Below, one piece after another: positions 22,301-63,960 of a stretch of 64,000 nt of DNA. The stretch is from Antedon mediterranea (Eukaryota > Echinodermata > Crinoidea > Comatulida > Antedonidae), in contig NC_092677.1 of assembly GCF_964355755.1 (NCBI RefSeq), positions 1,617,001 to 1,681,000 of the forward strand, read 5' to 3'. Position numbers and translations under genes: made by a program. Position 1 is the stretch's first letter, and every line of letters begins with the position of its first letter. A model generated the notes under the pieces. The model was not told where the DNA came from and did no database searches. It was given only the letters and a program-made list of their open reading frames with translations.

Positions 22301-25300
22301 TTAAGCGTTTACAAAATTTCTATGAGTGCGCATATTTTTGCGTGCGCACTGCGCGTTAAATGTTATTGCGAACTCTTTTTGCCCGATTTCTGTTTTCTTG
22401 ACTTACTTTTCAACGCGAAATTACGTTATACGAGCACGTCAAAAGTGACAGGCTACGCACGTGTAAATTAAAAAAATATAAATGTTTTTAAACATTTCAA
22501 CATTTTTAAACATGTTCAGTAATTTCGGTCAGTATAGTTCACTATGTCGGTCGGTCGGTCTGTCTGTCGGTCTGTCGGTCTGTCTGTCGGTCCGGTATCA
22601 CTATGCATTGTAGCACGCGACTTAATGGCTGTTGGCCTTGTTATTTACAGTCGAAATACAAATTTAATTCATGTATTTTACAGTAAAAAGCATGTTTGTT
22701 ACTCAAATACATTTATTTATTATTATTATTATCAGTATTGAATGCTTGTGATAACAGTGCTTGTCAGAATGGAGCTGCTTGTGTCCAGGTTTCTGGTTCG
22801 TGCACAGCATACACGTGTACCTGTCCAGACTGTTATACTGGAACATTCTGTGAGACTTGTAAGTTCTATGTTTTTCTGTTTGCTTTATTTACAGTTCAAA
22901 TACAAATTTGATTCATGTATTTTACAGTATAAAGCATGTTTGTTACTCAAATACATTTATTTATTATTATTATTATCAGTATTGAATGCATGCTCCAACA
23001 ATGCTTGTCAGAATGGAGGTGGTTGTGTCCAGGTTTCTGGTTCGTGCACAGCATACACGTGTACCTGTCCAGACTGTTATACTGGACAATTCTGTGAGAC
23101 TCGTAAGTTCTATGTTTTCCTGTTTGTTTTTATTTACAATTCAAATACAAATTTGATTCATGTATTTTACAGTAAAAAGCATGTTTGTTACTCAAATAAA
23201 TTTATTTATTATTATTATTATCAGTATTGAATGCATGCTCCAACCATGCTTGTCAGAATGGAGGTGGTTGTGTCCAGGTTTCTGGTTCCTGTACAGCATA
23301 CACATGTGCCTGTCCATCATGTTTTACTGGAACATTCTGTGAAACTGGTAAGTTCTATGTTTTTTCTGCTTGTCTTTATCAGAATTCAAATATGTATTTT
23401 ACAGTCTATAGTTTTCTGAAACTGTAATTTTTTCTTTTGTATAATATTCACTACCAGCGTCTGATGCTTGGGACGCAAGTTCTATGTTTGTCTGCTTGTC
23501 AGCCCGTGCCGACTGAATCTTCCCTATAATATTCCAGTATAAATGTAACTAGAATGCATTCATTTTTTATTATCAGGAAATGCTTGCACTGGCAACATTT
23601 GTCAGAATGGAGCTGCTTGTTTCCCGGTTTCAGGTTCGTGCACAGCATACACATGTACCTGTCCAGACTGTTATACTGGACAATTCTGTGAGACTTGTAA
23701 GTTCTATGTTTTTCTGTTTGTTTTCAGTCGCGTGGAAGCGACTCTATAGTTCACTATGTCGGTCGGTTGGTCGGTCTGTCTGTCTGTCGGTCTGTCTGTC
23801 GGTCTGTCTGTCTGTCTGTTGGTCCGGTATCACTATGCGTTTTATCGCTTTCTGACCTTATCTTGATATCAGTTTAATCTAGCTAAGTCAATTGTTCACA
23901 GAATATTCCTTATGGCCAGGAATCGATGTGGTTATGTTTTCACGGTGCGCAATAAAAAATTACGTGGTCTGCGCACGATTTAACGAAATCACGTTTCTAA
24001 TCATATCTTCACAACCATGAATCACAATTAAATAAAATTTGGTACTCATAAATTTCAGGGCATAAATCATCATATGGCAATACAATTACGTGCGTAGCGT
24101 ATGTAACGCATGCGTACGCGCGCTTAAAATTTTCAAAATTTATTTTCGATGAAATAAGAGTACGTTTCAGGCAATTTTAAGCGTTTACAAAATTTCTATG
24201 AGTGCGCATATTTTTGCGTGCGCACTGCGCGTTAAATGTTATTGCGAACTCTTTTTGCCCGATTTCTGTTTTCTTGACTTACTTTTCAACGCGAAATTAC
24301 GTTATACGAGCACGTCAAAAGTGACAGGCTACGCACGTGTAAATTAAAAAAATATAAATGTTTTTAAACATTTCAACATTTTTAAACATGTTCAGTAATT
24401 TCGGTCAGTATAGTTCACTATGTCGGTCGGTCGGTCTGTCTGTCGGTCTGTCGGTCTGTCTGTCGGTCCGGTATCACTATGCATTGTAGCACGCGACTTA
24501 ATGGCTGTTGGCCTTGTTATTTACAGTCGAAATACAAATTTAATTCATGTATTTTACAGTAAAAAGCATGTTTGTTACTCAAATACATTTATTTATTATT
24601 ATTATTATCAGTATTGAATGCTTGTGATAACAGTGCTTGTCAGAATGGAGCTGCTTGTGTCCAGGTTTCTGGTTCGTGCACAGCATACACGTGTACCTGT
24701 CCAGACTGTTATACTGGAACATTCTGTGAGACTTGTAAGTTCTATGTTTTTCTGTTTGCTTTATTTACAGTTCAAATACAAATTTGATTCATGTATTTTA
24801 CAGTATAAAGCATGTTTGTTACTCAAATACATTTATTTATTATTATTATCAGTATTGAATGCATGCTCCAACAATGCTTGTCAGAATGGAGGTGGTTGTG
24901 TCCAGGTTTCTGGTTCCTGTACAGCATACACATGTACCTGTCCAGACTGTTATACTGGACAATTCTGTGAGACTTGTAAGTTCTATGTTTTCCTGTTTGT
25001 TTTTATTTACAGTTCAAATACAAATTTAATTCATGTATTTTACAGTAAAAAGCATGTTTGTTACTCAAATACATTTATTTATTATTATTATTATCAGTAT
25101 TGAATGCTTGTGATAACAGTGCTTGTCAGAATGGAGCTGCTTGTGTCCAGGTTTCTGGTTCCTGTACAGCATACACATGTGCCTGTCCATCATGTTTTAC
25201 TGGAACATTCTGTGAAACTGGTAAGTTCTATGTTTTTTCTGCTTGTCTTTATCAGAATTCAAATATGTATTTTACAGTCTATAGTTTTCTGAAACTGTAA

Positions 25301-35816: not shown

Positions 35817-38800
35817 CTGTAAGATATATACATATCAAACTGAATTATACGATTCTTTTTGATTTTCTTATGTGTTTCTTTTTCTAAACTGCAATGGTTA
35901 TCAAATTTATTATATTATGTGAGGGCGTGTGGCGCAGTGGATTTCTGATCATGAGGTCGTGGTTCGGATCCAACTCTCGCTGCATTGCTTGTATCCTTAG
36001 GCAAGACACTTTACTTACAATTGCATCTCTCTACCCAGATGTATAAAATACCGGGTAGAAAAAGGCACAACTTTGCGCTGATTACTAGCTGCATTATTAT
36101 GGGAGTATGTTTCCATACATGGTTGACCCAAACATGACCTGGGTATTAACGTGCAGTGCATTGAAAGCTTGCTTATATGGGCTATATAAGAATCAACTAT
36201 TATTATTATTATAACCAGATAGTAAAAAGATAAATAAAACACAATTAGGCATTTTATACTTACTTTCCTGGTACCTTTTCCTTTCCTGTAATTTAAAAAA
36301 TGAAATAGCCAAAGTTAACAACCACAATACTGTGGTCTGTAGCATTGATGTGTAGAAGTGTTTTTAACATAGCTTTATGGAAAGTACTGAGGAGTTCAAC
36401 TCAAATAGGCTTCATCATACCTTACTTTTACTAATTTACCAATAACAATTAAAAGTGTTCAAAATTAAAGAGGGTTTTTAAGGAAGGAAAGCATACGATT
36501 GGCGTTTAACAATATTTAGTAAATTGGTTCCCAATTTTATAATTGAATGCACAGGCATGTGTTGTGTGTGATGCACAGGCATGTGTTGTGTGTGATGCAC
36601 AGGCATGTGTTGTGTGTGATGCACAGGCATGTGTTGTGTGTGATGCACAGGCATGTGTTGTGTGTGATGCACAGGCATGTGTTGTGTGTGATGCACAGGC
36701 ATGTGTTGTGTGTGATGCACAGGCATGTGTTGTGTGTGATGCACAGGCATGTGTTGTGTGTGATGCACAGGCATGTGTTGTGTGTGATGCACAGGCATAT
36801 GTTGTGTGTGATGCACAGGCATGTGTTGTGTGTGATGCACAGGCATGTGTTGTGTGTGATGCACAGGCATGTGTTGTGTGTGATGCACAGGCATGTGTTG
36901 TGTGTGATGCACAGGCATGTGTTGTGTGTGATGCACAGGCATGTGTTGTGTGTGATGCACAGGCATGTGTTGTGTGTGATGCACAGGCATGTGTTGTGTG
37001 TGATGCACAGGCATGTGTTGTGTGTGATGCACAGGCATGTGTTGTGTGTGATGCACAGGCATGTGTTGTGTGTGATGCACAGGCATGTGTTGTGTGTGAT
37101 GCACAGGCATATGTTGTGTGTGATGCACAGGCATGTGTTGTGTGTGATGCACAGGCATGTGTTGTGTGTGATGCACAGGCATGTGTTGTGTGTGATGCAC
37201 AGGCATGTGTTGTGTGTGATGCACAGGCATGTGTTGTGTGTGATGCACAGGCATGTGTTGTGTGTGATGCACAGGCATGTGTTGTGTGTGATGCACAGGC
37301 ATGTGTTGTGTGTGATGCACAGGCATGTGTTGTGTGTGATGCACAGGCATGTGTTGTGTGTGATGCACAGGCATGTGTTGTGTGTGATGCACAGGCATGT
37401 GTTGTGTGTGATGCACAGGCATATGTTGTGTGTGATGCACAGGCATGTGTTGTGTGTGATGCACAGGCATGTGTTGTGTGTGATGCACAGGCATGTGTTG
37501 TGTGTGATGCACAGGCATGTGTTGTGTGTGATGCACAGGCATGTGTTGTGTGTGATGCACAGGCATGTGTTGTGTGTGATGCACAGGCATGTGTTGTGTG
37601 TGATGCACAGGCATGTGTTGTGTGTGTGTTACCCTCCGTGTTTTATAGTGTGTAGTATAGCTTTCAATATGTATATATATTTATGTTGCTTTTCTTTTGT
37701 TTCCTTTCATTATTTTGCTCAATTGTTACATTGTTTTGTTTTGGATGCACCACTAACAACAGTGTGTGTCACTGATAGAAAAGTGATGACCAATAAATAA
37801 ATACCAATAAAATGATACTGGTACCAATAAACGTTGTACTTTATTCATTGATCCAAGCATTTATATTCCTCTGCATCTAATTACTGGCTATAAAACATAT
37901 TAATTAACTTACTTTTCCTGCAGTACAGCACAGCTACAACAATTACAACAATAACTACAATGACAGCAATGATCACTCCTGCAATCAGACCACCATTCGA
38001 TCCTTTTTCTAAATTAAAAAAAAGATCATAATTCATGTTTGTATTGTATTCTATCAATAAAGACGTTGTAATTAAAAGATAATGATCTAATAAATTATGT
38101 ATTTACAGCAGATGCTGTAATGGTATTACAAAATTAAAAGACTGAAACAGTTCTTGGGAAGAAAAACAGAAAATATAACGGAAATGTCTTTTGAGTGCTA
38201 CAATGGCTACACTAAGTCCCATGTATAAAGATAACCATGCAGAGAGTAAAGTTCTGTCTACATTATCAAATCTTATGTGACAAAAAAGTGTGATGTGCCC
38301 AAATATAGTAATATGTGCCCAAATATAGTAATATATGCCCAAATATGGTGAGGTTGAAATCATCATGTCCATATATGGGCACATCACATTTTTATGTCAC
38401 ATAAAGTTTGATAGTGTAGAAAGAGCTGTATAATAATAATAATAAAATATATAACATTGAAATATTTTTGTTGTTGCTTGATTGTCATCTTAAAAAAGAA
38501 CAACTTTCTCCACTTCTTATACCAGTGCTTCCTTTAATGTTAGTCCTATTTAAGTCTGCTGACCTGAGAATGACCTACCATGTGCATTTCCTCACCTTTA
38601 CACTCTTTTCAATTATATTTTATTACTCTAGTTGAATTTAAATTTGCAACACAACAACTGGCAAGTTGATCCAAGCAAAATGCTATCAATTTAAAATATC
38701 TATTTTATTTTTAAACCTTTCAAAATGTCCTGAAATGATCATATAAAAAGAAAAAGGTTTTTCACCAATAGGTTCCTATAGGATCCTATTGCCAAATAGC

Positions 38801-45995: not shown

Positions 45996-47534
45996 TCATT
46001 TAGTTGTCAGTGATTCTTTCAAAAAATCTAGTGAGAACACATGGTGTCTGATGCAGAGACCCCGATCTTGGTCATCTTCTTCAAAATTTGTTGTGTAAAT
46101 CATCAAAAACCATGATTTTCCATCATTCAGAAAAGGAACAATTTGTTCACATTTAACTTTACTTCTGTTTTGTAAAATGTCAATCGAGTTGAAATTGTCT
46201 CCACTTCTGACATGTATCGGCTTTAAACGGACAACATTATTGTCTGTTGTGTCTTGTAGAAAATGCCACAGACCTTCAAATTCGATCGCCTTCTTTTTCG
46301 CTTCTTCTTTTTTAGTTTTTCCCTTTTTATTAGATTTTTCCTGATTTGAAGATAGTTCTTCCTCAATAGCTTTACTTTCTTTTTTAGTTTTCTCTTTTGA
46401 TTTTCCCTTTATCAATTGTTTCGCAAAACCATGTCTCTTCTTTTCTTCTTCTCTAGTTTTTACATTTTTATCTAATTTTACTCCTTCTTGGTTTAAAGGG
46501 ACTTCCTCCTCTATTGATTCATTCTCTTTTTTAGTTTTCTCTTTTGATTTTCCCCTTTTGAATATCTTCTTAAAACCCCGTTTCTTTTCTTTTTCTTCTT
46601 CATCTTTTTCATGTACACATGGTGTTGACTCATCAGGTTCTTGTTGACTTATTCCTTGTATGTCTTCTTCATCTTCTTTGTTTACTTCTATTTCTTCTTT
46701 TACTACTGCTGCTACTGCTTCTTCTTTAGGAGTTTGATCGTTAGATTCGTCAATTGCGGGGACGCCCTTATAATCTGCTGACTGTTTTGTCTTGTTTTTA
46801 ATCGACGATAATGCTTTTGAAACTATACCAACTAAACCTGATTTCTTTGTTGTCTTGTCGGTTGGTTTTTCTTCCTCTGTTTCATTTGAACCCGCTTTTG
46901 TCACGTCATCGTCTGGATTAGCATCTTCCATTCCTTCCAAGTTCTGATTTAAACCTGCAAATGCACCTTGTTTTCTTTCGGTATCCAATGGTTCCTCATC
47001 TAGTTGTGTTACTTCTGTTTCTTCCCTTTCTTCTACTACTGCTGCTGCTTTATCTTCTTTCGGAGTTTCATTAGATCCTTCAGTTGTAGGCACGCTTTCA
47101 TAGTCTGAATCAGATGATTGTTTTGTCTTTCTTTTATTCGACAATAGGCCTAATGCTTTTGAAACTTTACCTTTTGCATTTCCAAATACACCGCGTTTCT
47201 TTGTTGTCTCGTCGGTTGTTTGTTCTTCTCTCACCTCCTTTGTACCTGTTGTTGGCACATCATTGTTTGGATTATCATCTTCCATTCCTTCCAAGTTTTG
47301 ATTTTCACTCTGCGATCCTTGATTTGTGACTGGCGCAAATAGCTTTTCGACGGAGTTTTTTAAACCTGCAAGCACACCTTGTTTTCTTTCGGTATCCAGT
47401 GGTTCTTCTGTTGCAGATTCTGTTGTCACTTTGTGGTTAGCATCTTCATCAGTTTTATTTATAGTTGGAGCACAAACAAACATTCCATCTGAAGAAAGCG
47501 TAACACTAAATACGGGCATACAAATAGTAGATAT
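45996..47534 (-). other. Gene D last exon: charged repeats and C-terminal module
   Basis: 1539 bp, 512 aa. It starts ISTICMPVFSVTLSSDGMFVC. An EPLDTERKQG..LEGMED..TKK(R/S)G..VSKAL..ETPKE block occurs twice (once in gene E), followed by KSKEKTKKE repeats and the conserved end FEGLWHFLQDTTDNNVVRLK to FSLDFLKES. Rich in Lys and Glu, and probably disordered in the middle. Confidence 0.85.
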
Positions 47535-50500
47535 CTGAAAAAAAATACGAATGTATCGGTGAAGAAAGAATTTTGCGATAAAGAGATATCAATAATAATA
47601 AGCCTTCTTCTAAATAAAACAACATACCTGCTCTGCCTCTTTAAACGTTGTACAATTATCTTCACTGACCCCTTCGTATAGAAGCATACTGGACTGCGAC
47701 AATGAAATAAGCACACGCACTTTACTAATGTTTGTTTCGATTAACTGGAAGACAAGATTCGTTTAATGACAATGTGAAAAATGTCTAGTTCAATAATCTA
47801 GTGAAAAATGGTACTTATTAATAATAATTGTATAAAATAATATATTTGTAATGAATTAGTTCATTTGTTAATGATGGTCGTTATTGAAACGTAGGAGGGA
47901 ACTGGTATTTTTCATCAAAAAACTCTAATTGTCAGGGTCTATACTGGTTTTTGTAAATGTTACATTTCGATATTAGAACTAAAACCAAACCTGAATTCGC
48001 ATATTATCTTCAGCGTTGTTCATTTCCACATAAACTATATTCCAATCATTTTCATTATCTGTCCACATTATAAAAGGCTTGTAAACTACACAGAAATAGA
48101 TCAATGTGTTGTTAGACTTAATCACAGAATTTCGTCAGATTTATAATAGAGAACGACATGTTTGAAAAAAAAGAACACATTCACATTTTTATTTAAAAAA
48201 ATAGACCTAGTATAGGTTTAAAAAACATGTGTTCGCTCTGGCAGGAATTATTCACACTTGACTGTAAGACATGCTCTTCATAAAATGACCACTACTTAAT
48301 TTACAGTAAAGTATTAGCTAAGTCCTAAATTCATCTTTATTACACCAGCATTGTTTCACTATTTAGCTGGTAGCAGTCAATTCCACTCATAACAAACACC
48401 TTTCTCTCACACCTTTAGTGCTCTATATTTAAATTATATTGTATGTAGACCTATAATTGTGTGATTCTTACTGAAAGGCTGATCTTCGATATCCGTTTGC
48501 TTTTGGCTAGACAAAGGTAGATACTTGACCCTCAATTCGTGTATTCGACTACTAGACTTCTCCTCTGTTTTAACTGTAAAAATCAAACAAACCTCATAAA
48601 TAAACTAGATATAGGGTAGATACTATACTTTATTTCGGCATTAATTATGACCGAACAATACATTTGTGTGCACATTTGATAATAATATAATAACTCATCA
48701 TTCATGTATTTGTTTATAAGGAGGTAAGATACGTATTGAAAGTTTGTTTGGCGTTTGAATGAACCGTAACAATACTTTCTTTTTAGTCGCGTGGACACGA
48801 CTCTATAGTTCACTATGTCGGTCGGTCGGTCGGTCGGTCTGTCGGTCTGTCTGTCGGTCCGGTATCACTATGCGTTTTAGCATGCGACTTATGGCTGTTG
48901 GCCTTGTTGAACTTTCATTTCATTTTATTTCATTTTACTAATAACTTAAATAAAGTGAAGGAGCCCCCAATGTAAGTATAGCGTGTAGTGAATAGGCTTC
49001 TCAACTTAAACTCTACTAAACTAAAACGTATTTCAACTAATTTGTATTTTTTAATGTTACATTTTACAGACACTCTACCAAATAAAAATACTCGGACGAA
49101 AAAATTAAGTTTACCTTTACGTTTGACCCAACCACCAACAACAAGCCGTCCATTTGACAATCTTTTTCCGCTTAGATAATCTAGAAAGAACAATAATTAA
49201 CATATTTATAATTTTATTATTTATATCAATCTTTTAAAATGTATTTTTATCTCTATTTTCTTAACAAATAAAATTGAATGAATGATAGTGAGTTATTGTA
49301 TTTGATATGGTATTGTTTTCCAAAAATATCATGATACATAGCATAAATGGTTTAAAATTGCGTCCAACGTACCGAATTTTAAATCTACAACAGAACCATT
49401 TAACTCCAATGTTTTGATGACGTCATTCATTATTCTGAAGGCGGGATTTCTGTTACCAAAAACTGTAATCAACTTCCTTTTAATTCTTGACTTCGATTTA
49501 GATACATTAACAACCCCGATAACAATATAAGGAGAATTTATACCAGGTAACACGGCGTAACTCAATAACTGTCTAAAAACAAAGAAACATCTTGTCATTA
49601 ACATTTTTTACAGAAATGTTTCATACGTTTTCTTGTTTCCATACGTCCATGTCAACAAAATTTGGTAAGCCTCAACCTCACAACAACACATTTAGCTGCC
49701 AAAATAATTAATGATTATCGTAAATAATCTTACTCTGTTTGAAGTAAAATATTAGCTTTTGCTTTCCATTCAACGGTTGATGCTTGCGTCGTGCCAGGCA
49801 TTCCTTTACACATTATGTACTTATGCTTGTCATTCAGTAGTAAAAAGAACTGGTCATTATAAAGAAATACTCCACCAGCGCTATAAAATAAAAATCAGTA
49901 GACATCACTAAAAGTAAAATAAATGAAATCTTGTAAACTCACAATTTATATATTATTTTATTGCTATATCTACTAACATAAGGCAAACAACGCTTACCTA
50001 AAAATATTCTCTTTTGTATTTCTATGAATTACATCTGAAACGAATAATGACAAAATCAAAACATTTTTTTGGAAGATTATTCCGGATTTATTATTATTAT
50101 ATATTATTCCTGGGGCTTTTTGATTATTTATTGATTTTTATAGATTAAGGAACAATATCAATTATACATTACATATTTATTTATCTATTTATTTATTTTT
50201 CTCTGTTCTGGGTTGACCAACTAGCATGGGTGTGTAGCACCTGTTTGGTCTTTCTGTGCCTCCTTTTATAATTGTTTTGTCTTCTTATGTTTATGGCAGA
50301 AATTGAATAAAATAAAAATAAAATCAAATAAATACTGAATAACTGAAATGAAACATCGTATCGGTCATTATAAACGGAGCATGGTTACTATGAGGTATGT
50401 TACTGTTGAATCATAAATGGGTAAACAATTTTATTTTTTAAAAATACACATTTGTGAAAAAAGATTAGGAATTAAAACACACCGTGCGACTCCGTGACAT

Positions 50501-53500
50501 AAAGTAGGGCCTGCTTACCTTTTCTTAAATCTGCTTCTTGATCTTGAAGCTGTCGAATTAGATGAACTTGATTGGTTGTTGTTATGCTCATGATCTAAAA
50601 ACATAATTTTTTTCCCATTATTGTGAGAATCAATACTGACATTTGTGCTAGGCACAATTAAAAATTCCTTTTTTGAAAATGTCAAACCAATCGACGCACT
50701 GTGTTCTTACGTGTTAATTATATGTAGAAAAAAATAAAATATGAAAATACTTACATAACACATAATGCGACGGTTTTCAAGATTTTCATTATAGCTGATA
50801 CATATAGCATACCGGTGCCGGTACCGGTATGCTATAATGAGAATCACGGTTATGATGATAACTAAAATAACGACAGTTGCTGCAATTGCCCCTTTATTAC
50901 TAGATCTACTGCTTACTGGAGTCAATGTTGCCTCATCTGTAAAAACGATGTGTTACGCATTAATACATTTTTGCTGTTCTTAAAGTTTTTAAACTAGAAT
51001 TCATTTGTTGATTTGGGATTATATAATTTAAACAGTACAAATGGTGTTGTAATACATTTTTGTTGTTCTTAAACTTTTATAACTAGAATTCATTTGTTGA
51101 TTTGGGATTATATAATTTAAACAGTACAAATGGTGTTGTAATATAGACAGAGCAGCACTGCAAAACAAACTACTATACACCACCATCCTACCATCATTTT
51201 TGTTATCATCACGAGTCACTCTATTACTACCGCAATGTTCAATGAGTTTATTGAATTTTAGACTTGTATTGGTATAGATTATAGTACACTTTAGTAATTT
51301 TAAGCAATATTTGGAATTTAGCATGTAAACATTCATTCGTTTCTAATATTAAACCTCGCTAATCCAGAGAGAGATCTTTATTTTAGTATGTTATATTATA
51401 TGCAGAAGACACTAAAAATAACAACTAAATTACTTCTTGCGTGCGAGTTTTGTCTTATCTATATATTTAAGCTTCTTACAAGAAGATTATGATTGGTTTT
51501 GTTTGATTAGGGTCCCAGACTCCACTTGACTTATGACTTTATCAATTCTCTTAATCCACATGAAAGTAAATTGTACAATTCCTTTTCAAAACTCTGGAAA
51601 CGTACAACTTACCTTTGAGCTTCAATGTAATCGAGTTACTTGTTTTTCCATTTTGACCAAATAAGAATTCGTTTTCCACTTTGCAGCTGTACTGCCCTTC
51701 ATTCTTTTCCTCGAAACTTTCAATTTCTAGTGTAGGCCTATCCGTTTTAAATGTCAACATATTATTGTCATGGAACCATGTTCTTGTGATTGGTTTGGGA
51801 TAAGCTTCTGTCGAGTTGCAAGACATTGTAACGTTGCTTCCTCTTCCAACTTTAGAATCACCTAGTACTGACAGCGTTGGCTTATCCAAATCTGTCATTA
51901 AAGTAATGCAGATATAGATATAATTATTTTTGTGTTGCACAACAACTTATTGCAATGATATAAACCATCTTATATCCTGTGTGTTTTTAGTGCACGTGTA
52001 AATCGAAAGAATTTACCGCCGTCAGTTGTATACACAAAGAACACGGAAAACATAACATTAGCTTTGAATGTGGTATTGAAGGATAGTTCATACTAGATTT
52101 GAATGTTCATAATAGTTCAATGTGGTATTAAAGGAACGTATGAACGTGTATGGTTCAGAGTACACACTGAATACAGGCGATACCTCACTTACAACACAAC
52201 ACAAGTCACAAATCAGTTTATTTGATCTACATACATTGCATTCATACTGTAACACAGGATTGTTTAGAAGACTTGCATTATTATCATACTTACAATATAC
52301 AGTCAAGGTGCAGTTTTTCTGGAAGAGTATAGTAGCTCCAGTAGACTCGTCATTTACTCCACACGTGTACGAGTCTGTGTCCTGCCTGCTAACAGCATTG
52401 ATAGTCAAGCTAACATATCCTGCAGTACCATCCAATGTTGGATCACTCAGCGAGTATCTAGACGCAGGATTCAAATCTTTTCTGGCAATAACTTCATCGC
52501 CTTTTTTCCAGTAGTATTTGCCAATCACGGCGTCCGTTGGTGTGTAGTAACATGGTAATGTTGTCTCTTGTCCTTCAATCGCAACTTTTGATTGGACAGT
52601 GAGTTTGTCAATGCTTTGGCCCACTGAAAAAAAGGAATAACATTCAACACATTCAATGTATACTAAATCATTATCAACATCATCATTGCCATCATCATTA
52701 TCATCATCATTATCATTATTATGCCTATCTTAATGAAAAAAAAGCATTATCATCAATCAACATATCTTCATCATCATCATCACCATAATTCTTATTATCA
52801 GTGGAAAAATTATTTCCATTTTAATACTACATAGTGTACAATTATAGAACATTGTGTTGCTCACCTTGTAGTTTATTTAGTGTATAGTTTATCTTTATTA
52901 CAACTCTTTACATGCTTTATTTTTATATATTTTGTATATTATTGCATTTTTATGTGAGCGATTTTTTCTGTCATGAATTTCCACAAGAACCAAATAAATC
53001 TGAATATAAAAAGGTGCAAAGTACAATCTAGACAAAACAAACATAGTCTAGAAAAATAAGTAGTTATTGAGGGAATTGAACACACAACTTAATGACGAAC
53101 ATTAATTTTCTGTACGTGTGAAATTCATTATTCAATTTTGATAAAAATATATTTTAGGTTAGCCGTATAGTTATACAGTGTATTAAAGGGGGTACAGCCA
53201 GCCAGGGTACCAACGGTGCGTTTTTTTGGCCTATCCGCAAAGTCGTGTAGTAAATCACGAGATGTGGCCCACAATTCCCAAATGACCGAGTATAGGCCTC
53301 CTTTCTTTTAAATTTTAGGTGGCTAGAACTTCCGGGTGGTAGCTTACTTCTGTGCTGGTTTTAATAATATTAAAGTCCAAATTGAACCTCAATTATCAAC
53401 CATTAGTTTCCAACCGTCTTTGTTAAATAAATGTTTTAGATTAGAATAATAAACAATTTATTGTTTCAGAAAAAAATGTAACGATGTGTCAAGGTTTTCG

Positions 53501-53736
53501 AGTACCCAGTCAATTTAGTCAACGGATATGTGTATGATAAAATACAGTAGGGGCATGCACATCAACGGAACAACCATTAATAATCTGCCCTGAAACCGAA
53601 TACACTAAAATTGCACAGTAAATCATACTACAGTAGGCCTATAAACTTTTGATATTATTTACTTACCACTATATTTAACAAATGTAACAACCAGTATATA
53701 CATCCAAAGCCATGAATATGGTCTAGTTTTAGTCAT
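45996..53736 (-). CDS. Gene D: two-Ig receptor with long novel cytoplasmic region
   Basis: Thirteen exons: 53736-53667 signal, 52623-52294 IgV, 51891-51613 Ig2, 50936-50755 TM, 50594-50519, 50034-49998, 49880-49734, 49572-49373, 49180-49115, 48573-48472, 48085-47991, 47744-47628, 47534-45996 with stop. Joined length 3240 bp, 1079 aa, all phases consistent. About 780 residues are cytoplasmic. I recognise no named domain in this part: a series of beta-strand-like modules (for example FLLLNDKHKYIMCKG, SKSKSRIKRKLITV, GRLVVGGWVKRK, FIMWTDNENDWNIVYVEM), then a Lys/Glu-rich disordered stretch, then a conserved C-terminal module (FEGLWHFL...VKCEQIVPF...FLMIYTTNFEED). Gene E is its tandem paralog. 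Likely a membrane receptor with a scaffold-like interior; the role is unknown. Confidence 0.82.
47628..50594 (-). other. Gene D cytoplasmic module exons (eight)
   Basis: Exons 50594-50519, 50034-49998, 49880-49734, 49572-49373, 49180-49115, 48573-48472, 48085-47991 and 47744-47628 use mixed phases (0/1, 1/2, 2/2, 2/1, 1/1, 1/1, 1/0, 0/0), unlike the shuffled extracellular exons. They align one to one with gene E exons of equal or nearly equal length. The content is alternating hydrophobic/charged strands, with patterns somewhat like PH or PTB beta-sheets, but no family motif is decisive. Confidence 0.75.
48784..48910 (+). mobile_element. Short GGTC/TGTC-repeat MITE in gene D intron
   Basis: Begins AGTCGCGTGGACACGACTCT and ends AGCATGCGACTTATGGCTGT TGGCCTTG. 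The internal (TCGG/TCTG)n block sits between TTCACTATG and CCGGTATCACTATG. Confidence 0.75.
50755..50936 (-). other. Gene D transmembrane exon with coding palindrome
   Basis: 182 bp, phase 1 in and phase 0 out. The helix IAATVVILVIIITVILIIAY is followed by RYRHRY. The DNA at 50806-50837 is a perfect inverted repeat with arms ATAGCATACCGG / CCGGTATGCTAT and an 8-base spacer, encoding that basic patch. Confidence 0.85.
51613..51891 (-). other. Gene D Ig domain 2
   Basis: 279 bp, phase 1-1. It reads RGSNVTMSCNSTEAYPKPITRTWFHDN..ESFEEKNEGQYSCKVENEFLFG, a C2-type Ig. Confidence 0.9.
52294..52623 (-). other. Gene D V-set Ig domain
   Basis: 330 bp, phase 1-1. It reads IEGQETTLPCYYTPTDAVIGKYYWKKGDEVIARKD..SRYSLSD..GYVSLTINAVSRQDTDSYTCGVNDE. 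Typical V-set core, by eye close to the style of CD300/pIgR domains (RYSLSD, LTI.AVSRQD.DSY.C). Nearly the same as gene E Ig1. Confidence 0.9.
52677..52800. repeat. ATC-type microsatellite
   Basis: Runs of CATCATCATTATCATC-type triplets interrupted once, in the first intron of gene D. Confidence 0.85.
53667..53736 (-). other. Gene D signal-peptide exon
   Basis: MTKTRPYSWLWMYILVVTFVKYS, 70 bp, ending AGTG|gtaagt in phase 1. A basic start and hydrophobic core support the choice. Confidence 0.75.
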
Positions 53737-55229
53737 ATTCTTAGATTTCCGTGTAACCAACAATTTTTTCATCCATGGTCTATCGGAGATACATAATACA
53801 GTAGAATCTATTCAAAATCACATCGTATCACTAATTGGAATTTACAATAAGTTAATAATAGTATAACTGTGGATTCAAAGGTCGTGGGTCAACACATAAT
53901 TTGAATACATTACTATGAGCCGCTTCATAAATACAAAACTCTGATAACAAGACTAAATACTACAATGAGCCAAGTGTATTTGTTGCTATTCCCTTACTAT
54001 TATACCACAGGCAAATCCAAGAAAGGGGCGACCAGCCCTCTGATGATTCGCCATACAGAAAAGCACCGCACATTGCAGAGTATCTTGTCGTCGTCGTCGT
54101 CGTCGCTGTCACCACCAGGACCTGTAATTGCAAGTTAATAAGCACCACGAAATGATGTGATCTTATTCGTCATTATTCGTTATCTCACCATTTCTTCTAG
54201 TTCATTACAAAATGCACTACCAAAATATAACAATGTTCTTCATTGTCGTCCTTTCAATCAATCTGGTTTACTAAGATATCCAGCCAGGACAGATGTTTTA
54301 CTAGCACCCCTAAAAAATGATGTTATTCAATGTCGATTGTCTCTGTCTTAACATCACAATCCTATATGAATTGGCCATAGCATTACATCGATACTTTTAC
54401 CCGCCGGTAAACTTAATCTGAAAAAATTTGTGAAAAGTGAAAACAATCTGAGACAATAAACAGAAAGACATCGGACCACTAATACAATTAAGATATTTAC
54501 TTATTTTTAGATATTATACACTGACAAATAACAGGTGTAAGATAGATTTTGCCACGCGTCTAGGCCGTTTTACCGATATGCTCATTAGTAGTATAGTATG
54601 TGCACATTTCTAATTTCCGTAAAACTGGTAAATCACATTATTTACATTAATCCATGGAGTAAACGTGTCAATTTAAGAAAATAAAGATTAGCCCCACTAA
54701 TAACCTATTTCCCACATATATACATAGACATTATTATTACGTAATCCCAAGTGGTCAAACTTTATAATACGATAAGTTTGCTTTCTATAATTTAAACATT
54801 GATATATTAAATTTACAAATAGCATATGCATTACATTAAAAAAGGATGACGAAAGCACCACATGTCTACTTAACTTCCGTTAAATGAGTACCTCACTCAC
54901 ATCGTCCAACCCTTCGCATCAACGGTTATAATTACGAACAATACAAATATTATAACGAATATAGGCCTATTAAAAAGCATGTCACAGTATTACACAAGAT
55001 ATGGCTATAACACGTTAAAGAAGAAGTGTTCTATTATAGTACCAAAAGTATTTCGTTCATAATCGTTCTTAATGTAACCATTTTTGTTTTCGCCTTCTTG
55101 TTGTTTCTGTGTATTTTCAATTTATATTGTGTCTTTTATCATTGTCTGTTATTGGTCTTTGGCTGTTGGATGTGAATTTCACAAAGTAATTCAAAACTCT
55201 GTTTAAATTAGCTGTTAGTCCATTATTAG

Positions 55230-55261
<32 letters not shown>

Positions 55262-55504
55262 TGATACGATAAAAAAAATGTATACATACAAATTACAATG
55301 AAATATAAATGACTGTTAAAATATACAGTACATTTGTTTGATGCTACGGAACTATTATGTGATTGCTATCTATGTCACGATTCTATTGATTCTATAATTA
55401 TACTGACATACTCATACACTAATGATAAATAAGATGTAAATGTTGCGATCTAATCTAATCTAATTACTAAAACAAGAAAGGAAGTGTGAAGCCTGGTACA
55501 GTAA
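53737..55504. other. Intergenic between D and E
   Basis: No gene recognised. It has a (CGT)n run at 54087-54108 and an (AAG)n run at 55228-55259. Gene D's promoter and gene E's 3' UTR must lie here, but no clear TATA box or minus-strand poly(A) signal could be fixed. Confidence 0.5.
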
Positions 55505-56524
55505 TTACTTTTTCAATGATTCTTTTATAAAATCTAATGACAACACGTGGTATCTGATGCAGTGACCAAGATCTTCATCTTCTTCAAAATTTGTTGTGTA
55601 AATCATCAAAAACCCTGATTTACCCTCACTCATAAAAGGAACAATTTGTTCACATTTAACTTTACTTCTGTTTTGTAAAATGTCAATCGGCTTGTAATCC
55701 TTTCCACTTCCGGCATGTATCGGCTTTAAACGAATAATTCTATTGTCAGTTGTGTCTTCTAAAAAATGCCACAAACCTTCAAATTTCAATTTCTCTCTTT
55801 CCTGATTTGTAGGGTCTTCTTCCTCTATTGTTTTACTCTCTTTTTTAGTTTTCTTTTTTGATTTTCCCTCCGTTTTGAATGGTTTCGTAATACCATGCTT
55901 TACATTGTCAATAAAACTCCGTCTCTTTTCTATTTCCTTTGATTCTTCTTCATGTACACAAGGTGTCGACTCATCAGGCTCTTGTTGACTTGTTCCTTGT
56001 ATGTCTTCTACTTGTTTTACTTCTGTTTCTTTTTCTTTTACTACTGCTCCTGCTTTTTCTTCCTTCGGAGTTTCATTAGATTCTTCATTTGTAGGAACGC
56101 TCTCATATTCTGCATCAGAAATGGGTTTTTTCTTGCTTTTAATTGACGATAATGTTTTTGAAACTTTACCAAGTACACCCCGTTTCCTTGTTGTCGCGTC
56201 GGTTGTTTTTTCTTCATCTGTTTCATTTGTACCCGCTTGTGGCACATCAGTGTTTGGATTATCATCTTTTGTTTCCCCCAAGTTCTGATTTTCATTTTGC
56301 GGTTGTTGATTTGTGACTGGCGCAACTAGATTTTTGACGGAGTTCTTTAAATCTGCAAGCACACCTTGTTTTCTTTCGGTATTTAATGGTTCTTTTGTTG
56401 CAGATGCCGATGTCTCTTTGTGATTAGATTTAGCATCATCGGTTTTATTTATAGCTGGAACACAAATAAACTTTCCATCTGAAGAAAGTGCAACACTTAC
56501 TACGGGCATATAAGTAGTTGAAGT
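55505..56524 (-). other. Gene E last exon
   Basis: 1020 bp, 339 aa. It has one copy of the EPLNTERKQG...ETPKEE block, then KSKKKTKKESK, then FEGLWHFLEDTTDNRIIRLK to LSLDFIKES. The end module is highly similar to gene D (ILQNRSKVKCEQIVPF is identical in both). Confidence 0.85.
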
Positions 56525-59500
56525 CTGGAAAAAATATGTATTAGTCAAAACTAAGTTTCATTAGTTTAATTATGAATAATATACTGTACTTTGCACGAAT
56601 GTGCATTTTCAAGTACGGAAAGTATCGGTGAGAGGACAACTATATCAATAATAAACCATCCTCTGAATAAAACACCTTACCTGCTCTTTTTTCAAAAACG
56701 TTGTACAATTATCATTACTAACTCCTTCATACACAACCTTACAGGACTGTAACAATGAAACTATCGCACGTACTTTATCATTGTCTGTTTCGATTATCTG
56801 GGAAAAGGCAGATTCGTTAGATGCGATTAACAATACTATAAAAGTTGTTTAATAACAGTAAATGTTATTGTGTTAGTATAGTTCGTTGATTAAACTTTAC
56901 ACCATTAAGTCAAAAAAGGCCAAACCTGAATTCGCATATTATCCTCAGCATTTTCCATCTTCAAGTATACGATATTCCAATCAATTTCATTTTCTGTCCA
57001 CAATATAAAAGGCTGATAACCTACAGAGAAAGAAAACAGTGTTAGCCTTAAACACAGCATGCAAAATGTATATTATACTATTTAGACTTTTATAGATTAA
57101 GAACTAAAACTTAAGCCCATTGATGAAATATTTGACTTGGTGAATAGGGCTGCTTGTCAGTACAGTGAACATTAGTTCAGATAAAGGACTATTTGACTGA
57201 GTTTGATCGGTCCTAAATTTACATTTAGTAAACCTGTATTGTGTTAAAAATTAACTGACGAGAAACAGTATATCCTTTACACATAAACTTTCTAGATTTA
57301 AGCTTAATGTATATTGTATGTAAAATGTGTGATTCTTACTGAAAGACTGCTTTTCGACATCCGCTTGCTTTTGTGTAGATAACGGAAGATACTTGACCCT
57401 GAATTCGTTTGTTTGACCATGCCTACCATTTTCATTTGTTTTACCTGTAAAACGCAAAAAATATAAATAATAACTTTACGGATCAATAATCCAGTAATAA
57501 TAGGCCAGTAGCTTATTCTTGCCAACATAAATAAACAACTACAAAGTAAGTGGAAGGAAACACAAAAGAGAACTAAATCCCTATGTAGATAAAACATAGC
57601 CTTTTGTAAGATGGTGGGACCAAACCCTATTAGTCACACAGGCTATTCACCCCTTATTCTCCCCGATGCCTACTCAACTTGGAACACTACATTCCTGAGG
57701 TGGGTCTTCCAAGGAAAGTCAATCAGGATGTGGTTAGGGCGCCTTGAGCACTCTGGAGTGGTATGTGCACTATAAAAATCTCATTATTATTATTATTATT
57801 ATTACCATTTGATTAGTCATTCTTACTGTCCCCTTAATATAAATATATGTTTTGTAGTTAAGTTAGTTAGTTTGGGTATTGATTCTTGAAACTATAACAT
57901 CAATCAGAATCACTACAATTTCACATTGTTTGATCATCCTACTTTTGATTGAATAAATAGTATATTGTACATTACATTGAATAATTTTGTGCCATCGTTA
58001 TTGTCTTGGCCCTCGACACGACTACAAATCATTCATAAATATACAAACACGTCCAGCACCAAAGAGAACGTCCTTCCGTTGCGTCCTAGTGGGAATCAAG
58101 TATGATACGAACCGAAAGTTTGTTTGTGTACAAACACTAAACAAACATAATTATTCTTAACAATTTTACCTTTTCGTTTTACCCAACCACCAACAACCAG
58201 CCGTCCAGTGGATAACTTTTTACCGCTTAGATAATCTAGAATGATAAAAACCCGTTTTTAATATAAATGGAAAGAATGACAACTCAACCAGCCTATTGTA
58301 TGTCTAAATTATTGCTGATTTGGATTCCATATCGACAGTCATGTCATTAAGTGAGCGCACGCTAGTTTAACTTACCAAATTTTAAATCTTCAACAGAACC
58401 ATTTGACTCCAATATTTTGATGACGTCATTCATTATTCTGAACAATGGATTTTTGTTTGGCAAAACTACAATCAACTTCCTTTTAATTCTTGACTTAGAT
58501 TTTGATACATTAACAACCCCGATGAGAATATAAGGGGTATGTTTACCAGGTAACACGGCGTAACTCAGTAATTCCTTTCTGAAAACAAAGATACTACGAT
58601 GTATAATGTTGATATATACAATACAGAAGGAAGTATCAACTGTACGTTTGACCGGTTGTTTTCCACTAACTTGGTAATTCAACAAAAAAAGATGATTTAT
58701 TTGAAGAAAGCTTTATATAATAATTAGCATGCTAACGCTAATGTTGTTAATGGAGCAATTCCGAGAACATTCAACACTATATCTCAAACATAGCTCAATA
58801 ATTAACAATTAAGGTTACAAAATCTTACTCTGCCTGGATTAGCACGTTAGCTTCTTCGTCCCATGTAATACGGGTAGGGAATTCCTGCGTCATGTCAGGA
58901 ATTCCTCTACACATTATGTACTTATGGTGGTCATTCAAAAGCAAAAAAGCCCTGTTGTTAAGAACTACTCCACCAGAGCTGAAAAATAATACAAAATATA
59001 AGGTATTTATATACAATCTTTAAATAATGACCTCGTTACGAGCCGAGACCCATACATACATGGTTTATTAATATGGCAGTTAACACCACGATAACTTCTA
59101 TAGGCCTACTATTTGTTATTGTATGTATCAAAACTGGATATTTATTAAATTCTTTTAATACTAACATTATTAAACTGTCTCTTTCTTAAATACTGTTAAT
59201 ATTATTTCCCTATTTGCTATGTTCATCCTATAATTACGATACCACCTTTGCTATTTAACATTGTTTTCAATTAAACACAACAAACTACATACCTAAGCAA
59301 TCTTCCATCTGTATTTCTATGAACTGCATCTAAAAAAATTATTTAATTAAAAAGTTATCTTCCAATCTATTAAAGATGTATTGTCCCCCCAAAAACATGA
59401 TAAATGAAGATTATTCAAATCAGATTTTGAATAGGCCATTAGTAGTTTAAATCAAGTAAATCACTTCCGTATAAAAGAAACTAAAATTTAAAAAAATGTT

Positions 59501-62500
59501 AAATTCAACCAAAATCACATTAGTTGGACGCAAATTTGACTATTTTTCCTTTAAATCACATTTTTTCAGGTAAATATTTGTATAGTCAAAGTGAATGACT
59601 ATAATGAAACTTAGAAAATAGCATAACATATAGCACAATTTTATTGGGTGACGTATTGACAATACAACTGATTTGTTCAAACAAACCAGTTCAGATCAAT
59701 TATAATCATTTTTTTTCAATTTATGTCATATAATTCAATAGAATGGATGTAAAATGATGGATGTAAACATATTTCTCAGCTTTCCTTATCTCAATATGAC
59801 TTGATTAGGGTACTCTGGAAATTATAACATTAATAATATAGTCTACCTTGTTTTTATAATTAAATTGTCTCCCCATACTTACTTGTGAGTCTAATGCCTA
59901 ATTCACCACCAAATCTAAATCGTGTTGTTGGTTTAGCACCAGACTGTTTTGGTTCCTGTTTTACATTCACAAAGCATCCAAAACGCCCTTCATCGTCATC
60001 AGTCACAGAGCGGGATTCTAGAGATCCTTCCGCACCTTTCACACCTTTACTTATTTTAGACTTACAATTCAGAGATATATTTGGTTGGTAGATTTTTGTT
60101 TTATCTTGATTCTTCTTATTTGGTTTTAAGACAAAGTCAAAGTACGGTTCTTTGTATCCACTAATGGTTATGATATCCAATAGTTGGTCTGTGTAAGTTA
60201 ACTCAAATGGAGCTGCTACGTCAGATCCTCTTGGTACTACAATCTCACCAAATTTAAATGTTATTGGTTCATCTTTCACTAGATCTTTGTTCACCTTCAC
60301 TGGTTGAATATCATATTTCTCTTACAAAAATTAAAAAAGTGTTAGATATCATTTTATATAATAAATGCATTTTAATAACGTGCAAATATCATCAGTGGCT
60401 CAGAATAAATATAATGACGTACGTGCGCATACATAATCATATAATGTACATTTTGAGTATTCTTCCCTGAATTTATGTTTCTTAGGAACTTTATTCAACA
60501 AATTAGTCATAATAACCATAATAATAAAAATGTAGTACTGCAGGGATTATTTTTTTACATAATTTCATTTAAAAAAACATTTATTTTCCTCCATAGCAAT
60601 ACAATACAAAATAGTATACAGATGATAAGGTAAAATAATAATGATAAAGATGATTGTTGGATGGACAAAAGAAAAGAGGCTATGGAGGAAGGCATAATAA
60701 TAATGGAGTGGAGCTGTACTGGGGTGGAAGGTGTTGCGGAGGGGGTTTGGTTAACGCAATCCTGACCTAGTGCCAGGGTTGTAACTCACAACTCTTTCAA
60801 CTCCACTCCCTAAGCCTCAAATGAGAATTAATAAGCATGATAAATTATAAAATAGTTTATCCATCCTGTAATTTGCGAGTTGCACATAAGATACATCCGA
60901 AAACACAGGCATTCCACATTGTCACTTAATTATATCTTTAAAAAGTGATACCTTTCAAATCTCCTGGTGTATCTGTAAGATGTTGGATGAGTTTATGGCT
61001 TGCCTTGTTGTTTGTTATGGTCTCAATCTAAAAATAAATAATGATAATCATGATTCTAAGATCAAGCCCATCTATTATTATCAATTTTAATTAAAAATCC
61101 TAACAATCGTACATATTTATTATATAAATATTAATGTTATGACACATCACTGCGTGTCCCGTGCTGGTTCCATTGACTTTTTATAATACACATAGAGTAA
61201 CAAATAATATTTCAAGAATAAAATTGTGGTTAGGCCTAAATGGAATGTAATACAATTTATAGTTTTAAACAAACAATCTATTTTAATTGTTGTCCATTTT
61301 TACCTTGTTTGGTTGTATACTTACAATAGTATAAATGTCACGTTGTTCCTTCTTCCTGGAGTATATAACATACACAACACCCAGAATTACGATCACGACA
61401 ATTGCTAAAATAACAAAAGTTGCTATAATCGCCCCACTGCTACTAGTTGATGGAGGAGCTGTTACCTCATCTGTTAACATAAATCGTATAATGCATCAGT
61501 TCTGGTATTTTATTACAGTGCTTATATTTAACATAGTGGAGCTGTAGCTTGGTGGTTAATGCGCTTCCCTTCCAATCCCAGGTCCCGTGTTCAATCCTGA
61601 CCTTAACTCACGACTCTTTCAACTATATCACCTAAGCCTCAAATGAGAATAAGTTTATAAGCACGATAGCTTGTTAAATAGTTTAACCATTCTTTTCAAA
61701 ATCTTGATCAGTACATTGGTTGCCACCCACTGGTAACCAGGGACGCGCCAGCCAAGCCGAACCATTTTAAAAATTTATTTACAAATGAATGCGTATGAGA
61801 TTTACAAATTACTTTTTTCAAGTTTTTTTCTTTGTGATAACATTTGGTTTTTTCTAAAGGGTTTTACGACTACAGAAAATGATTTGTCTCTGTAAATATT
61901 TATATTGTTGAATAAATGTGAATTGAACTTTTGAGCAGTTTACAAATGGTCTGTATGCTACTATGGCTCATTCATTAACAGAGAAACGGGTCTTATGACG
62001 GGTTTTCCTGCGAACTGAATAATTCATGCGTGGGTGTTTGTTTCTTTCGTCACCCGGACTGTATAAATCATAAATTTACCTTTAAGCCTATATGTAATTG
62101 AGTTACTTGCTTTTTCATTTTTGCCAAGTTCAGATTCGTTTTCCACTTTACAGCTATAGTTTCCTTTATTACTTTCATCAAACGTTTCAATTTCCAATAT
62201 ATCATTTTTAAAGTTGATTTTTCCAGGGATCTCTTTCAAAATCTTATTTCCATGGAACCACGTCCTTGTGATTTGTTTTGGATAAGCATCTTTCAAGTTG
62301 CAAGACATTGAAACCTTGCTTCCTCTTACGGCTTCCAAGTCACCTAGGGCCATCAATGTCGGTGTATCCAAGTCTGTCAATCAAAGTATAATCATAAGGA
62401 TACTGCGGGTAAATATCATTTATTTGGTGCTACAATCTAAGTTCCCAAACTTAATTCAAATGAGATGGTGGGAATTAATTACACATTACACAGCTCAGGC

Positions 62501-63160
62501 AGCTGAAGACGATCTTACTTATACGCGTTCTGTTCACATACAGCCGAAACACAAGAGCATTGGGCATTGGAGGGCTGTGGGCAGTTATGTACAACACTTC
62601 TATTAGTTTTCGTTTAATATAACTTCTATAGGCTTACTTAAATAGGGCTCAAACCACTCGGGTCTACAAAATGTGTATAGCCATTTGAGGAAAAATAATC
62701 GCGGTGTGCACAATGTGCTGGAACTGATAGAGTTCATAACGTACAATATTTACAATTAGTTAACAGTTTCGTGGTGAGAAGACGGGACGTGGTTATGTGC
62801 TTGTGGTTCACATGGGTATAATACACTTACAATATACGGTTAAAGAACATTTCGTCTGGAAGAGTATAGTAGCTCCAGTAGACTCGTCATTTACTCCACA
62901 CGTGTACGAACCTTCATCTTGTCTGCTAACAGCATTGATAGTCAGGCTAACATATCCTGCAGTATCACCTTGCTTTGGATCACTCAGCGAGTATCTAGAC
63001 GCAGCATCGTCTTTTCTTGCAATAACCGTCTCGTTTTTCTTCCAGTAGTATTTGCCGATCACGGCGTTTGTTGGTATGAAGTAACATGGTAATGTAGTGG
63101 TCTCCTGCCCTTCAATGGCAAATTGTGACTCAGCAGTGAGTTTGGTAATGCTTTGACCAA
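55505..63160 (-). CDS. Gene E (5' partial): paralog of gene D with an extra Ig-like exon
   Basis: Thirteen exons: 63160-62831 IgV, 62373-62080 Ig2, 61470-61325 TM, 61027-60952, 60320-59883 (extra), 59329-59293, 58978-58829, 58578-58376, 58235-58170, 57444-57340, 57020-56926, 56797-56681, 56524-55505 with stop. Coding length 3077 bp; after the two bases of the split first codon it gives 1024 aa. The signal exon was not found in 63161-64000, where a LINE sits, so it is probably beyond the window. Exon order and lengths follow gene D, except for the extra 438-bp exon after the TM and a shorter last exon. It is a membrane receptor with an unknown intracellular role; both paralogs keep open frames throughout, which suggests both are functional. 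Confidence 0.82.
56681..59329 (-). other. Gene E cytoplasmic module exons (seven)
   Basis: 59329-59293, 58978-58829, 58578-58376, 58235-58170, 57444-57340, 57020-56926, 56797-56681. Matches to gene D include RNT, FLLLND.HKYIMC.G, LLSYAVLPG..(T/S)PYI, NVSKSKSRIKRKL, FRIMNDVIK, YLSGK.LS.GRLVVGGWVKRK, RVKYLPLS.QKQ and EDNMRIQ.IET. Confidence 0.78.
57600..57812 (+). mobile_element. SINE-like retroposon in gene E intron
   Basis: It ends GGGCGCCTTGAGCACTCTGG, GTATGTGCACTATAAAAATC and an (ATT)n tail. The start looks tRNA-unlike or truncated. It is a typical 3' tail form of deuterostome SINEs by memory. Confidence 0.55.
59883..60320 (-). other. Gene E extra exon: Ig-like fold on the cytoplasmic side
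   Basis: 438 bp, phase 1-1, 146 aa, absent from gene D. It has ISLNCKSKIS and VTDDDEGRFGCFVNV; the latter matches the D-x-G-x-(Y/F)-x-C Ig signature. No tryptophan is found where expected. By exon order it follows the TM, so it would be cytosolic unless splicing differs. The acceptor (TTGTAAG|AG) is weak. Confidence 0.6.
60706..60880 (+). mobile_element. Degenerate SINE copy
   Basis: Shares GTGGAGCTGTA, CTCACAACTCTTTCAACT and CCTAAGCCTCAAATGAGAAT with 61534-61770, but the A and B boxes are spoiled. Confidence 0.55.
61325..61470 (-). other. Gene E transmembrane exon
   Basis: 146 bp, phase 1 in and phase 0 out. PPSTSSS stalk, helix AIIATFVILAIVVIVILGVVYVIY, then SRKKEQR and DIYTI. Confidence 0.88.
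61534..61770 (+). mobile_element. tRNA-like SINE
   Basis: A box region TAGCTTGGTGGTTAATGCGC and B box region CCGTGTTCAATCC, followed by a body CTCACGACTCTTTCAACTAT with CCTAAGCCTCAAATGAGAAT. A related, deleted copy is at 60706-60880. Confidence 0.65.
62080..62373 (-). other. Gene E Ig domain 2
   Basis: 294 bp, phase 1-1. It reads RGSKVSMSCNLKDAYPKQITRTWFHGNKIL..IETFDESNKGNYSCKVENESELG. Confidence 0.9.
62831..63160 (-). other. Gene E V-set Ig domain
   Basis: 330 bp, phase 1-1, same length as in gene D. It reads LPCYFIPTNAVIGKYYWKKNETVIARKD...LTINAVSRQDEGSYTCGVNDESTGATILFQ. The region around TINAVSRQD..SYTCGVNDE is almost unchanged between paralogs. Confidence 0.9.
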
Positions 63161-63204: not shown

Positions 63205-63960
63205 TTAAGAGGGTTTATTTATTTATTTGGAATTACACCTTTAGATCGGTGGCACACTTAGCACAAAGGTGCATCCTTCACAATATAAAATATAACAATT
63301 AACAGAAAAGTAAAAAAAGGCAAAAGCAACTATCAACCCCTATCCTACCCCCCCCCCCCCCCAATTTACATCGATACATACAGTAGATCATTACTTTACA
63401 CAATGAATACAAAACAAGATATAGTAAAAGTGTATAAAATAAAATAAAATAAAATCAGCTGATAAACACAGCTTATTACGAAAAACCCCCAACTCCTCCC
63501 CCCAAACCCCCCCCCACCCTCCCCCCCCCCCCCACTTTTTTTTCAATTTACTTAATGTAGCAATGTAGATAACATAGTTATTGAGTCATGGAATTCAGTG
63601 AATCATTTCGAAATTGCCATGCTTGTTTTAGGTATCTTTTACAAAAACTATCCAAAATATTTTCACACTCTTCATCAATTAAATTATCTGAGTATCCCAA
63701 AATATATTTAAGTTTGTCATTTTCAGGAGAAGTATAAAAAGTATCAAACATATCTTTGCTGCCATTTCTATACATATCCACATATAAATTAAATAATTCC
63801 TGATTACGTATATTATTTAAAGCTGGACAATTAAGGATGAAATGATGGATGTCTTCGTCCGAATTTGTACCGCACAATTTACATTTTTTATTATTATCAA
63901 TATTCCAATTTGCAGTTTAACGATGACCTATACTGCTGACTGAAATATAGTCAAGCCACC
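63205..63960 (-). mobile_element. LINE fragment at window edge
   Basis: On the minus strand 63877-63578 reads CGTNSDEDIHHFILNCPALNNIR..., the C..H..C end of a LINE reverse transcriptase. The (TTTA)n at 63215 is its tail. Two poly-C runs (63347-63362, 63503-63534) interrupt the 3' UTR. Confidence 0.7.

Follow-up and report, generated by a model that had tools for sequence, protein, structure and literature searches.

Genes D and E

The window, a stretch of 64,000 nucleotides of the crinoid Antedon mediterranea, contains two neighboring predicted genes, D and E, which we reconstructed manually from minus-strand splice signals. Gene D (53772-45996, minus strand) consists of 13 exons encoding 1091 amino acids with zero internal stops, and gene E (63160-55505, minus strand) has 13 exons inside the window, encoding 1024 amino acids (Table 1). 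Every splice site in both models conforms to GT-AG, the intron phases agree exon by exon, and the two members of each exon pair are either equal in length or differ by a multiple of three. The domain order is common to both: a V-set domain, a second Ig domain, one transmembrane (TM) helix, and a cytoplasmic tail. D carries a signal peptide. For E, no convincing signal-peptide exon was found within 15 kb upstream of its first exon in the window; this exon must lie upstream of the V-set exon.

Table 1. Exons of genes D and E, with their positions in the window
Feature	Position	Strand	Length (bp)	Phase	Match or remark
D exon 1: signal peptide MKKLLVTRKSKNMTKTRPYSWLWMYILVVTFVKYS with start codon	53667..53772	-		0 to 1
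D exon 2: pIgR-like V-set, with Cys in strands B and F and close to the C-terminal end	52294..52623	-	330	1-1	Pfam V-set 1.2e-8; PDB pIgR 1.6e-8
D exon 3: second Ig domain (Ig_3/I-set)	51613..51891	-	279	1-1	Pfam Ig_3 1.2e-11
D exon 4 (TM exon): stalk, transmembrane helix, basic juxtamembrane stretch with D-specific palindromic insertion	50755..50936	-	182	1-0
D exon 5: first tail exon, linker from TM exon to tail	50519..50594	-	76	0-1	length identical in D, E, and C1
D exon 6	49998..50034	-	37
D exon 7: tail core	49734..49880	-	147
D exon 8: tail core (LLSYAVLPG...KSRIKRKL...)	49373..49572	-	200
D exon 9: tail core	49115..49180	-	66
D exon 10: tail core	48472..48573	-	102
D exon 11: tail core	47991..48085	-	95		NAEDNMRIQ invariant across 3/3 paralogs
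D exon 12: tail core	47628..47744	-	117
D exon 13: core end, Lys/Glu-rich linker (YESVP motif), C-terminal module, stop	45996..47534	-	1539		Pfam: no match
E V-set exon	62831..63160	-	330	1-1	Pfam V-set 2.3e-8
E second Ig domain exon	62080..62373	-	294	1-1	Pfam Ig_3 5.7e-9
E TM exon	61325..61470	-	146	1-0
E exon 5	60952..61027	-	76	0-1
E extra cassette exon, 146 aa	59883..60320	-	438	1-1	not in D
E exon 6	59293..59329	-	37
E exon 7	58829..58978	-	150
E exon 8	58376..58578	-	203
E exon 9	58170..58235	-	66
E exon 10	57340..57444	-	105
E exon 11	56926..57020	-	95
E exon 12	56681..56797	-	117
E exon 13: core end, linker, C-terminal module (approx. 55505-55790), stop	55505..56524	-	1020

The Ig domains of both genes are canonical, with V-set and Ig_3/I-set matches beyond the curated Pfam cut-offs. 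Past the TM exon, the tail measures 792 amino acids in nine exons in D and 768 amino acids in ten exons in E, which agrees with the at least 700 intracellular residues in about ten exons that an earlier note on this DNA had claimed. The tail comprises a core of ~280 residues that runs from exon 6 into the beginning of exon 13, followed by a charged linker and by ~95 residues that form the C-terminal module. The same note had described a tandem family with exon lengths and sequence conserved between paralogs. The conservation is borne out by matching phases, near-equal lengths of most exons, and dN/dS values of 0.22-0.53 across the V-set, the second Ig domain (Ig2), and the tail core. The tandem arrangement holds for D and E but not for a third member, which is sited on another contig.

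Within the coding part of the D TM exon lies a palindrome, gcataccggtgccggtaccggtatgc (window about 50805-50835), which gives rise to a 9-residue juxtamembrane insertion (RYRHRYAIC region) that E does not have. Adjoining gene E, a zf-RVT match (window 63578-63916, minus strand; E 2.9e-5, just below the curated cut-off) marks the remnant of a LINE-type element.

A third locus and the unity of the gene

When tail fragments were searched against the genome from which the window comes (18 contigs, 354 Mb), related sequence appeared at three loci only: D, E, and positions 13246255-13252854 of contig C1. At the C1 locus, none of exons 6-13 is interrupted by a stop, and their splice sites are intact. 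A V-set search of the same genome located an intact V exon (13204926), which lies 41 kb upstream of the C1 tail and shares its strand. It is accompanied by an Ig2 exon (13205499) and a TM exon (13205989-13206152), and the phases of D and E are kept. The C1 exon 5 (13227098-13227173) is exactly 76 bp long and reads IKRITMTMEIYALNQQFTGQSDLKK, compared with IETITNNKASHKLIQHLTDTPGDLK in E. The hallmark of type I members of the Ig superfamily (IgSF), a single TM helix followed by basic residues and in frame with the ectodomain, was found in D, E, and C1.

The C1 locus is widely spaced, with ~40 kb from ectodomain to tail and 21 and 19 kb on either side of exon 5. The stretch from the TM exon to exon 5 (C1:13206200-13227000) contains retrotransposon-type open reading frames (ORFs) of 1045 and 1231 amino acids on the minus strand, and recombinase-like ORFs are also present within the gap between ectodomain and tail (C1:13206200-13227000 and 13227200-13246200). 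A signal-peptide exon of the C1 member was looked for and not found. Given these large distances, the C1 member may be a dying gene. Its cassette exon is a pseudoexon, a remnant of the E cassette with a stop codon (C1:13245670-13245885). Because this remnant exists in C1, the cassette predates the paralog split; D has lost it, and in C1 it is dead. In E, its sequence is Ig-like in look (VVPRGSDV...DDDEGRFGCFV, with D-E-G-R-F-G-C), and AF2 run on the single sequence gave no usable model (pLDDT 40); the cassette perhaps encodes a cytoplasmic domain of Ig-like type.

Order, strand, phase, and the 76-bp exon 5 are kept at three loci, which chance adjacency is unlikely to achieve, and this argues strongly for one gene rather than two. 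Thus, the comparative structure of D, E, and C1 shows one transcription unit per locus, as predicted from sequence. The earlier note had itself raised the alternative that the Ig/TM exons and the tail exons are separate genes that merely lie side by side. This would be compatible with the predicted nature of the introns in all three models and with the 40 kb that part ectodomain and tail on C1, where retrotransposon-type ORFs occupy the gap. However, C1 contradicts it by repeating the order, strand, phase continuity, and short linking exon of the other two loci, and the D introns that flank exon 5 measure only 160 bp (from the TM exon) and 484 bp (to exon 6). Two distinct genes are therefore highly improbable. 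We consider it equally improbable that the main product is a secreted form, in which Ig2 (phase 1 out) is spliced in frame to exon 6 or to the E cassette. The phases permit skipping of the TM exon together with exon 5 in D (258 bp), E, and C1; nevertheless, both exons are retained at all three loci, and the tail, rich in Lys and Glu and with few Cys, is cytosolic in look.

Searches with the cytoplasmic tail

In the tails, the earlier note could name no kinase, TIR, death, or other domain, and our searches led to the same result. At an E-value cut-off of 10, each tail piece (core and C-terminal module) yielded only sub-threshold noise in Pfam, which included DUF1631, DUF4251, DUF4595, Plant_all_beta, and separase TPR. 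The PDB, searched by sequence and by a three-row profile, contained no credible match to the tail; the best entries, 1vim for the core (E 0.058) and β-2-microglobulin for the C-terminal module (E 0.18), were taken as chance. No tail relative was found in viral and prokaryote contigs. We also used hhalign to ask whether the block of exons 7-8, the block of exons 9-13, and the C-terminal module are copies of an internal repeat; the probability was below 1%, and the idea was rejected.

The C-terminal module, which is contiguous in the DNA, was modeled by AF2 at low confidence (pLDDT 64) as strands followed by a terminal helix; the model suggests that the module is probably β-rich. Structural comparisons of the model stayed at background (Foldseek best E 0.13; VIA-align best Z 4.6, to Nudix-type enzymes), and no fold match was accepted. 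Thus, the Pfam and PDB sequence searches on the tail and Foldseek on the low-confidence module gave no clear match to a known domain family, in line with the earlier expectation.

A linker tyrosine in the context Y-E-x-V is kept in all three paralogs, as YESV in D and E and as YEIV in C1, while the full ITIM-type S-x-Y-x-x-V is found only in D (SDYESV). The pattern [ILVS]xYxx[ILV] matches five times in D and four times in E, compared with 0.6-1.0 in shuffled sequences, and these matches fall mostly within the core, where they are possibly buried.

Constraint, surroundings, and a proposed receptor family

We computed dN/dS between D and E segment by segment, with bootstrap intervals. The values were 0.22 (0.12-0.41) for the V-set, 0.33 for Ig2, 0.53 for exons 6-8, and 0.45 for exon 9 to the start of exon 13, with 95% upper bounds below 1 across the V-set, Ig2, and the tail core. 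The TM exon with exon 5 gave 0.84, no different from 1, the linker 0.64, and the C-terminal module 0.45 (0.22-1.01). Between E and C1, dN/dS was 0.27-0.42 for the Ig domains and the tail core. Thus, purifying selection acts on the Ig domains and the tail core, constraint is strongest in the V-set, and the conservation between D and E is well beyond chance. The description of the C-terminal module as nearly invariant was overstated; its identity is 76% between D and E and 56% between E and C1, and the V-set is more constrained. Synonymous divergence (dS) between D and E was 0.5-0.65 over the ectodomain and dropped to 0.27 at the 3′ end, where E-C1 dS was 0.85. The low D-E value suggests partial homogenization of the two genes at their 3′ ends.

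The window is located at the margin of an Ig cluster of ~0.6 Mb (C8:1058066-1680161) with at least 40 exons matching the Ig2 of the D/E family. The cluster includes window 7-31 kb on the plus strand, and the members looked at consist of V/Ig domains followed by EGF repeats. The D/E V-set exon has close copies, each followed by an Ig2 exon decayed by stops and frameshifts, beside Ig-EGF genes at three places (L037:1848-2805, L038:1277-2024, and L039:1803-2538), which implies that D/E-type ectodomain exons were copied into the Ig-EGF array. As to a possible kinase tail in this array, none of the kinase matches listed lies within the cluster.

GC content in the window is ~33%. Two consecutive, near-identical blocks of EGF exons (window 21016-25103) appear to be a recent internal duplication in an Ig-EGF gene, and a minisatellite of ~24-bp units (window 36478-37800) can be read as long open frames in either strand (HTQHMPVH and similar) and is probably no gene. 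In the genome, sialyltransferase (GT29) exons are hugely expanded, with 150 matches on many contigs (C1, C3, C5, C6, C7, C9, and C11). This expansion and the restriction of the scored matches to 11 contigs would suggest a deuterostome, probably an echinoderm and perhaps a crinoid; COX1 was absent from the assembly, and an HCN channel carried no signal of phylum.

By their predicted structure, D, E, and the C1 member form a small receptor family that is real and conserved and whose tail is an orphan. We favor, with a probability of about 0.62, a family of single-pass type I IgSF receptors, with D and E in tandem and C1 dispersed, whose tail serves as an orphan docking platform with a probably β-rich C-terminal module. 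The gene structure, the linkage of ectodomain and tail at three loci, the purifying selection, and the topology as read from the sequence form its established part. In such a receptor, the pIgR-like V-set and the second Ig domain would bind an extracellular ligand or counter-receptor, and the third V-set cysteine, which has no evident partner, may permit disulfide-linked dimers. After clustering, the tail core, the Y-E-x-V linker, and the C-terminal module would recruit partners inside. It is conceivable, but rather doubtful, that tail exons 6-13 represent a new intracellular domain family, with one or more β-rich modules absent from fold libraries and an undescribed signaling route behind a V-set shared with the adjoining cluster. 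The undescribed receptor signaling system for which the earlier note saw D and E as the best candidate is a possibility rather than a result.

As regards the tail, the chief rival reading is that the core has a strongly diverged known fold, most plausibly PH/PTB-like (exons 7-8 and the C-terminal module), which would make D and E ordinary lipid- or phosphotyrosine-docking receptors. Approximately seven hydrophobic, strand-like stretches can be discerned by eye, ending in KSRIKRKLITVF and accompanied by the helix-like FRIMNDVIKTLE, and the order of strands and terminal helix in the AF2 module fits this pattern. However, Pfam PH, PTB, and FERM were unmatched even at E 10, as were PDB profiles, and with the low-confidence module, Foldseek and VIA-align placed no PH-like family above background among the rows listed. 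We regard this fold as a tentative possibility. Looking instead at the surroundings, D and E could be diversifying immune or allorecognition receptors that belong to the adjoining cluster (C8:1.06-1.68 Mb), as at least 40 Ig exons occupy these 0.6 Mb and D/E-type V-set exons were copied into its Ig-EGF genes. Yet the V-set, at dN/dS 0.22, is the most constrained part, the reverse of what diversification predicts, and the tandem members are two only. Conservation of the V-set points to a fixed ligand and away from a diversifying immune receptor, which we consider unlikely.

The favored reading, a small receptor family with a docking tail, is of use because invertebrate deuterostomes have many Ig receptors whose signaling is obscure. 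A conserved ~770-residue orphan tail on the same ectodomain at three loci is a concrete handle for partner capture and fold solving. Should it turn out to be ordinary, the family, which has no intracellular domain annotation, still gains a checked gene model.

Compared with known systems, D and E resemble pIgR/CD300 receptors in the V-set domain and in type I membrane topology. The V-set had been called pIgR/CD300-like, which is correct inasmuch as its nearest PDB sequence among the best phmmer hits is pIgR (E 1.6e-8). A second intradomain disulfide that joins the C and C′ strands is the defining feature of pIgR/CD300-type receptors, and on this point the likeness fails; the C-C′ cysteine pair is absent from the V-sets of D, E, and C1 (KYYWKK...ARKD, without Cys). 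These domains have three cysteines only, in the B strand, in the F strand, and near the domain end, the last of which recurs in all three members and in three additional V copies on C8. D and E also differ by a second, I-type Ig domain and by a far longer tail of ~770-790 amino acids, in which ITIM/ITAM sequences are putative motifs. With PH/PTB-type adaptor domains, the tail shares only the pattern of strands and helix, by eye, with no sequence match. The neighboring Ig-EGF array has related Ig domains, and three of its members share the D/E-type V-set exon; there, however, EGF repeats come next, and the D/E tail was not found in the array. The Alr allorecognition receptors of Hydractinia are invertebrate Ig receptors encoded by clustered genes, with tails that lack catalytic domains, and in these respects, they are similar to D and E. 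Receptors of the Alr type are highly polymorphic and linked to histocompatibility. D and E differ from Alr in that their Ig domains are canonical and strongly conserved and their tail is long, multi-exonic, and found in three members only.
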